Shown here in pieces: positions 38,969 to 43,335 of a stretch of DNA of 64,000 bases. The notes beneath the pieces were generated by a model, which was not told the DNA's origin, did not search any database, and saw nothing but the letters and a program-made list of their open reading frames with translations. Source of the stretch: Planctomycetia bacterium (lineage in GTDB: Bacteria; Planctomycetota; Brocadiia; Brocadiales; Brocadiaceae); assembly GCA_015075005.1 (NCBI GenBank), contig JABTVC010000002.1, positions 1,470,259 through 1,534,258 of the forward strand, in the 5' to 3' direction. Position numbers and translations under genes: made by a program. Position 1 is the first letter of the stretch. Every line of letters starts with the position of its first letter.

Positions 38969-39844
38969 TTACCTCTTTTTATACTTCTTACTGGCATTCT
39001 TAAGAAAACTACGTTCCCGCCGTGTCAAATTTCTCAGACCATCCCGATTCACCTTATCCAGGATTTCATCTACCTTGGCGCGCAGATCATGATCTTTCGT
39101 CAGCTCTTTTTCTTGTTGATGAATCTGCCACTTTTTCAGGAGGTTTACAACCCGAAACGAATATCGGACAAATAAAAACCCGTAAACAAGGCCGCCCAAA
39201 TGAGCAAAGTGCGCAATATTGCCACCCTTGGGAACAATACAGTTAAATATCGTAATACCGGCAAAGATCATAACCAGATACTTTGCCTTCATAGGAAAGA
39301 AATAAAAAATGACTGTAGCGTTAGGAAAATACATGGCAAATGCCACTTCAATGGCGAAGATGGCACCGGAAGCCCCCATGATAGGGGTCCATGGAGTAAA
39401 TACACAACAACATATCCCCGCAAAGATACCTGCCGTAAAGTAAAGCGTTAAAAATTGCCGCACGCCGAGTGCCCGCTCAACTTCACTACCAAACATCCAA
39501 AGGCCCAGGAGATTAAATATCAAGTGCCACGGATCCGTTGTACTATGCAAGAACATATAGGTAAAGAATTGCCATACCCATACATGCCCTATCGCATCGG
39601 GCGGATAAAGCCAGAACAACTTTGTGAATTTATCGGAGGCGGGATAATGCCACGGATACGCCAATGCATTTCCTGCGTGTTCATCCGTTAAGGTGTTCAT
39701 TACCTGATTCGACCATTGTAAACTCACTGTCGAAAATAACAATTGTAGCAGAAACACGCTTACGTTTGCAATAATCAGCAGCATGATTACGCGTGTCCAC
39801 TTGCTCCCGATATTTATACCGAAGAAGAGTCTGTTATTGTGCAT
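38969..39844 (-). CDS. rhomboid-family membrane protease
   Basis: 291 residues, six or so membrane helices. The catalytic Ser is in GASGAIF (about residue 150) and the His in FAHLGGLVYG (about 230); a WHLIFNLLGLWMFG helix (about 108) carries the conserved His and Asn of the oxyanion side. The charged C-terminus ends in a short basic coil. Catalytic residues are all present, so active intramembrane proteolysis is expected. It precedes dapB. Confidence 0.92.
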   Translation of the reverse strand: MHNNRLFFGINIGSKWTRVIMLLIIANVSVFLLQLLFSTVSLQWSNQVMNTLTDEHAGNALAYPWHYPASDKFTKLFWLYPPDAIGHVWVWQFFTYMFLHSTTDPWHLIFNLLGLWMFGSEVERALGVRQFLTLYFTAGIFAGICCCVFTPWTPIMGASGAIFAIEVAFAMYFPNATVIFYFFPMKAKYLVMIFAGITIFNCIVPKGGNIAHFAHLGGLVYGFLFVRYSFRVVNLLKKWQIHQQEKELTKDHDLRAKVDEILDKVNRDGLRNLTRRERSFLKNASKKYKKR

Positions 39845-40004: not shown

Positions 40005-41599
40005 TTATCTGGAAAACAATTTTCTGAAAACAAACATGCCGCTGATAAACAGGACAATATCTGCTCCCCACAAGGCAGGAACAAGAGGCACGACCGCATT
40101 TTCCGCCATTACAATTCCCGTTACCACCAGCGGATAGTAAAGAAACAGGATTACCAGAAAGCTAGCGCCAAATCCAATTATCAGATGTCCGCTGCGCAGC
40201 ATAATCCCAAGTGGGACACCAATAATGATAAAAGTTATACAGGATAATGCCTGCGACAACCTCTTGTGTATGGAAATATCATTTTTTCGTCGTATCTTTT
40301 CATTCTTGGCAATATGTTCCACGCCCTCAATGTCTCCGATATTTTTAATCAAAATATCCCGCTGACTATCTATCTCAGAGATGGATTGGGAAAAAGAGGC
40401 GATTTTTTTGGTTTCGTCAGCCTGCACCGCCGCTGCCGCTGCAACATTGCGCTCGATACCATAAATCCTTTGCTTTTCTCTTTCGATCGATTCTTTGATT
40501 TGCATAATTTTTTTATCCCTATCTTCACTCGTTAATTTCCCAGCCTTCGTTTCTCTCTTTACCCGAATTAAATTTTCATTAACAACAAGGATATAATTTT
40601 TGGCTATCTTACTCTCGTTTTCCAATCCCTCTATCTTTGATTTCTGTCTGGCCAGGTTTTCATTTGACCGCTTCAGTTCCATGGTGAGATCGTCACGCTT
40701 CCTGGATAAATTACTCAATTTCTGACGATAAGCGGGAAGTTCTTTGATTAACATATCATCGGTCTTTTTTGAATCTAATGGCATTCTCACGTTTTTTGCG
40801 AGTTCCTTGTCAATTTCCCTGTTGGACCGGTAGAGTTGAAATATCGTCATATATTTTGCAGAAGATTCCCGTTTCTTTTCGCTCAAAGAAATCTCGAATG
40901 TCGTTTCATTAAACACACCCAAACGAGGTATCTCATCCAATTTTTTGTAATTTGGCTTGAGGAATTCCCCCCGGTGTAACGTGAGCAGTATCTTATTGGC
41001 CGCCTCATCCATTTTAATTGTTCCCTCTTCGGCCAGGATAACATTCGTCACATAGTCATCTGCATACTCAATTACCGCTATGTCTTTATTAATGGTATCT
41101 TCCACGCTTCCTATATAAATCTGGTACGGACGCAGGTCTATCTTTTTCTGAAATGTAGCCAGACGTCCGGCCAGGAGGTTATTTATTGCGCGTTCCTGGA
41201 GCAATATTATTTTATAACAAGACCGCGGTAAAACTTCCGATGATAAAGCCAATGTTATTAAGCTAAAGAGGCCTCCAATAACTAAAACAGGGGTAATTAT
41301 TTTCATCAGGTGTATACCGCACGTCTGGATAGCGACAATTTCATGATCAGCACTCATACGTCCATACGTCATCAGCCGTAGCGGTAAGGATTGCTGAGGG
41401 ATAGAATAAGGGTGGCCTGAATAAAGAGGTGGGGAATAAGTGCCCTAAGGGTGATGATATCGAGACCTTTATGTAACAGTTGAATAGCAAACCCCAAGAA
41501 CATCAGGAATTCAAAACATACGAGTGATGGCAAAAACATCCTGAACCAATCTCTCATAAGATAACGTTCTAATATTTTGTTAACTAATAAATTAGGCAT
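40005..41599 (-). CDS. LptF/LptG-type permease with coiled-coil insertion, one frameshift
   Basis: The N-terminal 75 codons (41599-41372) and the rest (from about 41390 to 40005) are in different frames. One extra C in the TCCC run near 41398 would join them as a block reading LPLRLMTYGRMSADHEIVA, the typical LptF/LptG element after the second membrane helix. C-terminal membrane helices end the protein. LptFG drives LPS export with LptB. The family has about 360 residues; here roughly 530, because about 150 residues of Lys/Glu-rich coiled coil (ELPAYRQKLSNLSRKRDDLT onward) lie in the periplasmic part. The single indel in a C-run may be a sequencing error. Confidence 0.8.
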
Positions 41600-41659: not shown

Positions 41660-43132
41660 TTATCCTAAGAATCTCCTTATCTTCCCTGCTGCGACCACAT
41701 TTTCCATAATGGTATCTTTTTTCCCGGATGTAATAGATTGGACGATTTGGGATGTACATTCACTATGCAACAGGTTCTCGGTATACCTTACCATGCTTAT
41801 TACCTTCTCGATATCCTTTGCAATCTTGGGGGATATTAGCTTTTTGACATCCCCATTGTAATACGATGCTGCCAATGAAAGATTTTCAAGGAATGACGGA
41901 TACGCAGTCTTAAGAAACACTAAATCTTTTTCAGTTAAATAATGCAATCCCAGCAGCTCCGGAGGCAGTCCGACCGAATAGAGGGAGGCACAAAAAGAAA
42001 TCACCCGGGGCAAGACAATCCCTTCAATGTTTCTTGAATAACCGAAAAGTCCAATATGAAGTTTACGCATCCTTCGTTTAGGAACAAATCTGGCTATCTC
42101 GTTAATCAACGGAGCAAGCTCTTTTATTTGTTCCCGGTAAGCGGATGTCCCTCTTTCCGTAATATCCAAAGCCGTTTCTTCATCAATAATAACCGGAACA
42201 TCTCTCGTATGGTTATTAATCTTCTGAATGGCATCTCTCGCCTGTTCCTCATCATAATCGTATTTGAATGCCGACTGAATTGTAAAGGTTTGAACGCTAG
42301 GGTATTCTTTCAGACATTCATCCACGCTGAATGGTGACAGATTACCACGAAAGAGATTCGAACCCAATCCCAGGATGGGATATATCGGAATCTTGATCCT
42401 TTCCTGTAATGCGTGCAACCTCTGTAAAGCAATTTTGACAACCAATATGGCCGGTAGCATACCATAGTTCAATGCAGGATCTGAACGGCCAAGGAATACC
42501 CTTTGATGCAACAATTTTTTGTCCTTAAGATAATTCTGCACCATCGTGTCTGCAGAGAGCATGTAAGGAATATCCTCGAACAAGGGAATAACTTCTATAG
42601 TCTCTGGTTTAAACTCACCAATCCATTCCTTTATCGTAATATCATTCTCAAAACACCGTCTGTGCTGTTTCCCTACGACAAAATCACGGTAATAATAATA
42701 TACACGATTAATTGCCTCCGTACTCGTAGTCATGGGAAGGATAACTTCAAAGATGGGTGGTATATTATCGTCTCCGTAAAACTGGTGTGCGGTATCGTAC
42801 GAACGTGGTGCACTCTCCAAAGTTTCCAAAAGAATCTTTGCCTCGCTTTTTTCTACCATGGGATTGGGTACTCGTAAGGTAATGAAGTAATCCTTTCCAA
42901 GCCGGTATTTTTTGAAATAATGGTCATAACGAGAAAGCAGTTTCTTAATAACAAACTCATCGACTTCTTTTCCTTCACAGTCCCACATTTGTTCGTCACA
43001 GCGGAGGTGTGAAAAGACATAATATGCCTCTTTTATTTCATCTTCACCCAAAAAGCACGTTCCCTCAGTAAAAAATGGCATAGTTACATTATCGGGGTGT
43101 TGGGTACTCATCGTTCGTGATATTTTTCTCAT
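41660..43132 (-). CDS. ppcA: archaeal-type phosphoenolpyruvate carboxylase
   Basis: 491 residues from the ATG at 43132, preceded by GAGGTTACAG. The start MRKISRTMSTQHPDN and blocks CDEQMWDCEGKEVDEFVIKK, PIFEVILPMTTS, LGRSDPALNYGM, LGLGSNLFRGNLSP and FTIQSAFKYDYD are those of the short archaeal-type PEPC (PpcA, PF14010), not the 900-residue bacterial enzyme. It makes oxaloacetate from PEP and bicarbonate to refill the TCA cycle or fix CO2. It is complete. The neighbouring lptF-like gene is on the same strand. Confidence 0.93.
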   Translation of the reverse strand: MRKISRTMSTQHPDNVTMPFFTEGTCFLGEDEIKEAYYVFSHLRCDEQMWDCEGKEVDEFVIKKLLSRYDHYFKKYRLGKDYFITLRVPNPMVEKSEAKILLETLESAPRSYDTAHQFYGDDNIPPIFEVILPMTTSTEAINRVYYYYRDFVVGKQHRRCFENDITIKEWIGEFKPETIEVIPLFEDIPYMLSADTMVQNYLKDKKLLHQRVFLGRSDPALNYGMLPAILVVKIALQRLHALQERIKIPIYPILGLGSNLFRGNLSPFSVDECLKEYPSVQTFTIQSAFKYDYDEEQARDAIQKINNHTRDVPVIIDEETALDITERGTSAYREQIKELAPLINEIARFVPKRRMRKLHIGLFGYSRNIEGIVLPRVISFCASLYSVGLPPELLGLHYLTEKDLVFLKTAYPSFLENLSLAASYYNGDVKKLISPKIAKDIEKVISMVRYTENLLHSECTSQIVQSITSGKKDTIMENVVAAGKIRRFLG

Positions 43133-43335
43133 ATCTGTAACCTCATGCACAAAGAAGCCTTCACATTCCGTATTTGTTCTAAAACATTATATTATATTAA
43201 AAAAACTCTTAATTTCATTAAATTATTTTTATCAGACATAATTCTATTTCTTACTTTCCTTATTCTTAAAATAGTTTTATAATAATGATTTGTAATATTA
43301 TTCTATAAAATATCTTTTTTGTGATAAGTTTTTTT

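Follow-up and report, generated by a model that had tools for sequence, protein, structure and literature searches.

A predicted coiled-coil arm in the LptF-type permease of the planctomycete class Brocadiia

The Lpt machine is known mainly from gammaproteobacteria, whose LptF lacks the part described here, and in known LptB2FG both the movement of TM4 and the periplasmic jellyroll are part of lipid extraction. Like the LptF of LptB2FG (PF03739; E. coli; PDB 6mit, 5x5y, 8frl, 9dok), the permease analysed here has six predicted TM helices, a jellyroll between TM3 and TM4, and the glutamate of the coupling helix; unlike E. coli LptF, it has about 177 extra residues running from the jellyroll to TM4 as a predicted coiled-coil hairpin. 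LptF of Planctomycetia type (Gemmataceae, Planctomycetaceae and others) has at the same site a linker less than half as long with a weaker heptad signal, and Phycisphaerae-type LptF a linker that is equally long, without heptad period and of other content. Antiparallel coiled-coil hairpins attached to an export machine are familiar from the periplasmic adaptor proteins. There the likeness is one of shape rather than of shown homology, and the arm described here lies within the permease itself. A coiled coil of fixed reach also occurs elsewhere in lipopolysaccharide biogenesis, in the WbdD ruler of O-antigen length (PMC6286764, accessible portion); unlike WbdD, which is another protein and a trimer, the LptF arm shows no length co-variation.

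The hosts are bacteria with a long-disputed envelope and are drivers of nitrogen loss. One survey (Speth et al. 2012, PMC3422733) reported that every planctomycete genome it examined, that of Kuenenia among them, has LptD; its text nowhere uses the terms LptA, LptC, coiled or permease. The Lpt system of Planctomycetes has been called largely reduced (PMC8871954, in the excerpt available), and fused and divergent genes may lie partly behind that call. Among the open-access papers that our literature searches listed, we found no description of such an LptF arm or of an LptC-LptA fusion.

In the window, by which we mean the whole 64,000-nucleotide stretch of DNA analysed, the minus strand carries an lptF-type permease gene at 41599-40005. 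The main frame (41372..40005, minus strand, 455 aa) matches PF03739 LptF_LptG with E 5e-41 in two separate stretches and passes the curated cut-off of that profile (141.3 bits vs 27.9); in the genome search these stretches correspond to profile positions 69-256 and 258-353, with a large unmatched part of the protein between them. The first 75 codons (41599 to about 41375) lie in a different frame from the main frame, which is without TM1, and several frame changes fall inside about 60 bp (window 41372-41430), the rest of the gene being intact. Among relatives, lptF is one open frame in all 20 long copies fetched: 17 measure 522-541 aa and the remaining three 549, 578 and 686 aa. The window main frame aligns without gaps to that of the intact relative L057, with 402 of 455 residues identical (88%), and the parts of the gene were placed largely by mapping the L057 model onto the window:

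41375..41599, minus strand: N-terminal part of lptF (TM1 and start of TM2) in the other frame; frame analysis and alignment with intact relatives
40005..41372, minus strand: main frame of lptF, coupling helix to C-terminus, 455 aa; profile match and L057 alignment
40881..41141, minus strand: periplasmic jellyroll strands (L057 residues 154-240); L057 model mapped onto the window
40761..40880, minus strand: connector with a short helix (L057 241-280); model, pLDDT 52 and 56 at its two ends
40551..40760, minus strand: predicted arm helix 1 (L057 281-350); model and heptad period across relatives
40530..40550, minus strand: predicted arm turn (L057 351-357), variable in length between relatives; model and alignments
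40266..40529, minus strand: predicted arm helix 2 (L057 358-445), continuous with TM4 in the model; model
40566..40655, minus strand: conserved distal patch of arm helix 1 (L057 316-345); conservation profile
40446..40520, minus strand: conserved distal patch of arm helix 2 (L057 361-385); conservation profile
40008..40265, minus strand: TM4 to TM6; L057 model and alignment
38969..39844, minus strand: rhomboid gene downstream of lptF, candidate partner; PF01694 match, present in 31 of 35 loci

A PF03739 search of the genome returned one long LptF-type gene and one other LptF/LptG gene of ordinary length. Profiles place the long copy on the LptF side (TIGR04407, 8e-38, vs 8.5e-15 for LptG) and reverse the order for the other copy. 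Because the TIGR04407 equivalog cut-off of 230 bits was missed by both L057 (130 bits) and the window frame (102.6), we file the gene as LptF-type within PF03739 and not as that equivalog; the ordinary-length copy, on the LptG side by profile, is also below the NCBIfam equivalog cut-off. Six LptG rows separate from the LptF rows with SH-aLRT 99 in a tree in which E. coli LptF is long-branched and E. coli LptG absent. In the L057 model six TM helices are predicted and the jellyroll falls between TM3 and TM4, and when the whole model was compared with known structures (VIA-align) the top scores went to LptG chains (6mjp_G: Z 24.1, rmsd 9.5, 337 aligned), with LptF chains close behind (5x5y_F: Z 22.8, rmsd 7.1, 332 aligned). 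At the position of E. coli LptF E84, the glutamate of the coupling helix, all 33 Brocadiales-type rows and the window have Glu; the available part of PMC5082905 describes E84 as crucial for LPS transport. Judged from these sequence features, the long gene probably encodes the LptF-type half of an LptB2FG lipopolysaccharide exporter.

Measured between fixed landmarks, the end of the jellyroll and the start of TM4, the linker is 41 residues long in E. coli LptF and 218 in L056 and L057, the intact relatives closest to the window copy, which leaves about 177 extra residues; the original prediction was right that residues had been added here and counted them low, at about 150. Brocadiales-type linkers span 216-235 residues (sd 6.5, 39 rows), and the same linker in LptG is 43-45 residues in the six measurable copies of nine, E. 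coli LptG being among the three unmeasurable. In the window, 39% of the insert residues are charged. AlphaFold models were made for L057 and L095. The AlphaFold2 model of L057, built from 42 sequences with mean pLDDT 80 and pTM 0.58, has one helix spanning 281-350, a turn (351-357) and a second helix, 358-468, that runs into TM4, so that the arm is predicted to be an antiparallel coiled-coil hairpin continuous with TM4. In blocks of ten residues the pLDDT of the two arm helices is 76-93, falling to 55 at the turn, and a rise of 0.15 nm per residue gives the helices lengths of about 10 and 13 nm; given the pTM of 0.58, it is uncertain which way the arm points with respect to the jellyroll. Averaged over 33 Brocadiales-type rows, the hydrophobicity spectrum has its peak at 3.50 residues in helix 1 and at 3.45 in helix 2. 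For L057 alone the spectral peak was reached by 142 of 500 shuffles in helix 1 and 270 of 500 in helix 2, and the heptad claim therefore rests on the set of relatives, L057 by itself not exceeding shuffles. The long, charged coiled coil proposed for the periplasmic part of this permease is thus borne out: it is conserved, absent from E. coli LptF and modelled as a hairpin apart from the jellyroll. A comparison of the arm alone with known structures (VIA-align) returned generic helical hairpins at Z 12-13 and was uninformative. We gave no weight to the weak library matches of the arm to tropomyosin, SMC, myosin, PI3K p85 and an enterotoxin family, which we regard as non-specific resemblance between coiled coils or helices.

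LptF/LptG genes are present in all 59 relatives searched, and an LptF match covering at least part of the arm was found in 69 of 75 genomes of the class; the hairpin, predicted to be separate from the standard jellyroll, is thus not absent from relatives. Five of the others (G011, G017, G024, G045 and G074; 67-86% complete) gave no LptF-type match, and G054 gave an N-terminal fragment only. Among the named members of the arm class are Brocadia, Kuenenia, Jettenia, Loosdrechtia and Scalindua. In eight rows drawn from other families of this class the linker measures 223-298 residues and shows the same heptad period; one sequence labelled 'Brocadiia' at NCBI (L100) has a linker of 67 and is placed elsewhere in the tree. 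Beyond the class, linkers are 85-94 residues in Planctomycetia-type LptF (21 rows), 119-156 in five rows of Calditrichota, Neomarinimicrobiota and Zixibacteria type, and 53 in the one Verrucomicrobiota row. The Calditrichota LptF model has the same predicted layout in shorter form, with helices at 261-294 and 332-407 and a disordered tip between them. The heptad ratio is 1.20 in Planctomycetia-type LptF vs 2.53 in the Brocadiia arm, where the period is 3.50 in Brocadiales-type and other Brocadiia rows alike. Long LptF/LptG proteins also occur in Bacteroidota. One genome of the family, G018, has two long LptF copies (L040 and L041), one with a 686-aa open frame.

Phycisphaerae-type LptF has linkers of 204-265 residues at the same site (12 rows: L098, L115, L125, L126, L132, L167, L185, L194, L201, L204, L221 and L222), ten of which were aligned for the conservation comparison. 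These inserts have no heptad period, more proline and glycine (P+G 11.5% vs 3.8%) and more beta-prone residues, and by content they appear to differ from the Brocadiia arm. In arm-free trees of 128 rows, for which Brocadiales-type rows were thinned and eleven named rows and rows without measurable linker were left out, linkers of at least 180 residues fall into two pure groups. The Brocadiia arm group has SH-aLRT 93 in the 128-row tree (23 rows) and 94 in a 108-row tree (22 rows) from which six long-branched and fourteen further rows had been dropped; the Phycisphaerae-type long-linker group reaches SH-aLRT 100 with all 108 rows labelled and long branches removed. An AU test on the 108-row set did not reject the Brocadiia and Phycisphaerae-type long LptF as one group (p 0.404), and long linker length may have had a single origin in the two. 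The linker survey, the trees and the insert content rule out the arm as a general planctomycete trait: the coiled-coil arm is neither an oddity of one genome nor planctomycete-wide, and among the phyla surveyed it is found in one class only. The survey of planctomycete LptF lengths called for at the outset thus found the arm across one class, with Planctomycetia-type linkers of about 90 residues and Phycisphaerae-type linkers that are long without heptads; the tie once drawn to the planctomycete envelope generally is not supported in that form, and a few other phyla have shorter inserts.

Over the arm, dN/dS is 0.33 against L057 and 0.39 against L056, values from which we read purifying selection; on this and the class-wide conservation we rejected a chance or neutral insert. 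Across 33 Brocadiales-type rows, the near-tip parts of the two helices reach 2.78 and 2.89 bits of conservation, compared with 2.04 and 2.17 for the stalk, 1.98 for the turn region and 3.1-3.3 for the core. A difference this large between distal part and stalk arose in two of 164 circular shifts, and its direction is shared by all three subgroups, the limits of the distal patch having been picked after the conservation profile was seen. In the eight rows from other families of the class there is no distal conservation peak. These profiles suggest that, within the order, the distal patch may be a docking site on a variable stalk. Of the roles originally proposed for the coiled coil, the binding of an extra partner is favoured by the distal conservation, though the partner itself is putative. 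For an arm that would span the periplasm, the modelled length is about 10-13 nm.

The genome of the window also has LpxC, LptD and the LptG-type gene by profile searches, and a 660-aa protein that consists of an LptC domain followed by three LptA-type stretches (L152:3048-5030). LptC-LptA fusions of about 660 aa occur across the order (L144-L151, L153-L157), with three LptA stretches in those scanned. The fusion gene stands behind two genes with SIS/CBS and HAD domains, which we take to be kdsD and kdsC. An LptC match was found in 54 of 59 relatives, and 53 of the 56 matches listed are frames of 615-808 aa. LptA-type domains were matched in 26 of 29 genomes searched, all of the listed matches lying in fusion frames or in LptD-sized frames (757-974 aa, taken as LptD by size). 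No separate LptA-sized frame exceeded the threshold in the 29 genomes, where a divergent LptA could fall below it, and the one short LptA-type frame, of 267 aa in G007, adjoins the other piece of that genome's split fusion. Because LptA-type matches are confined to fusion or LptD-sized frames, the bridge in the sampled relatives seems, from sequence, to be one polypeptide.

The arm and the fusion are nevertheless separate traits, since fusions also occur outside the class with armless LptF. Of the 14 loci fetched there, eight were scanned; the LptC protein has an LptA-type domain above cut-off in five and just below it in three, and all eight genomes have armless LptF with linkers of 49-96 residues. 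In other Planctomycetota with armless LptF, such fusions measure 793-1115 aa (L249, L252, L254, L255 and L257). Two Calditrichota-type genomes and one Neomarinimicrobiota genome, all with mid-length LptF inserts, have LptC frames of ordinary size, and with fusions beside armless LptF on one side and mid-length inserts beside ordinary LptC on the other we rejected a strict pairing of arm and fusion. Across 43 genomes of the order with both frames judged whole, the lengths of LptF and of the LptC-LptA fusion do not co-vary (Spearman 0.17, p 0.29), which leaves unsupported the proposal that the coiled coil measures distance as a ruler.

The window lptF sits between a PEP carboxylase gene and a rhomboid gene (PF01694). 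Six of the 41 loci have too little sequence; in 31 of the remaining 35, lptF is followed downstream by a relative of this rhomboid, and all 31 are of Brocadiaceae or Scalindua type (among L054-L088). It was not found downstream in L089, L092, L093 or L117, each with at least 3.5 kb of sequence and each arm-bearing; because of these four loci, the rhomboid tracks the anammox lineages and not the arm as such. From its position it is a second candidate partner of the arm.

We tentatively favour, at somewhat less than an even chance, the reading that the arm is a rigid strut whose distal part docks on a partner, likeliest the LptC-LptA bridge. The stalk would fix a reach of about 9-13 nm above the membrane, the conserved distal part would dock on the one-polypeptide bridge, and the arm would either keep the bridge erect above the transporter or transmit TM4 movement to it. 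In an upright arm, the helix 2 patch would lie some 9-13 nm from the membrane, which is roughly level with the first LptA modules, judging by the usual module size. Being continuous with TM4 in the model, the arm is positioned either to transmit movement to whatever is bound at its tip or to brace it. We rank the LptC-LptA chain as the leading candidate partner, with confidence no more than moderate, because LptC of E. coli reportedly interacts with LptF and not with LptG (as cited in PMC10353723) and because some LptF mutants survive the lack of LptC (PMC9972910). Since arm and fusion are not strictly coupled, the partner, like the docking and the mechanical role, is something we infer. A two-rail bridge, in which lipid would move on the chain of LptC and three LptA modules with the 10-13 nm arm alongside, its distal end clamping the second or third module and TM4 movement pushing or gating the bridge, seems to us doubtful. 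The arm and the one-piece LptC-LptA together suggest that lipopolysaccharide export here is built differently from the textbook machine, and a class-wide arm joined to TM4 is a natural test of how permease and periplasmic bridge hold together.

The distal patch implies some partner, and the same observation would fit an arm that docks elsewhere, on the downstream rhomboid, peptidoglycan, an outer membrane protein or another inner membrane complex, thereby regulating or positioning the exporter. The lack of strict coupling between arm and fused bridge outside the class points this way, as does the rhomboid gene, which, rather than any lpt gene, is the conserved neighbour of lptF in the anammox lineages; for peptidoglycan, Kuenenia has a thin layer of it beneath the outer membrane (PMC4432595, accessible portion). 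Against docking elsewhere, the rhomboid was not found downstream of the four arm-bearing lptF genes named above, and the PEP carboxylase, DapB and ClpB neighbours in the window indicate no envelope partner; we consider it rather unlikely. Still less probable, in our judgement, is that the arm is the passive expansion of a pre-existing short helical hairpin between jellyroll and TM4, without any partner. The gradient of linker length from 41 residues (E. coli) through about 90 (Planctomycetia-type) and 119-156 (five rows) to more than 200 (the class) speaks for such growth, as does the shorter hairpin with disordered tip in the Calditrichota model; the narrow length range, the purifying selection and the conserved distal part are, however, unlike a neutral spacer.

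Two further readings concern the gene itself and not the strut. The window copy could be a decaying pseudogene, silent on function here, given its several frame changes near the start and a genome with no second long copy. Over the whole remaining 455-codon frame, however, dN/dS is 0.19 against L057 and 0.26 against L056, and this, together with the open frames of relatives and the clustering of the changes in about 60 bp, makes decay less likely than a local fault in sequencing or assembly; we regard a pseudogene as very unlikely. That the protein moves another lipid, outside LPS export, gains something from the missed TIGR04407 cut-off (130 of 230 bits) and from a substrate that sequence cannot reveal; a genome with one LptF-type and one LptG-type gene, LpxC, LptD and an LptC-LptA protein argues against it, and we give it hardly any credence.

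Directly upstream of lptF in the window (41660-43150) is a PEPcase_2 gene (PF14010, E 4e-189), presumably an archaeal-type PEP carboxylase. In Scalindua sediminis, an ABC exporter (ABC_membrane and ABC_tran; L075:3918-5804), which we assume to be MsbA-like, stands divergent beside lptF.
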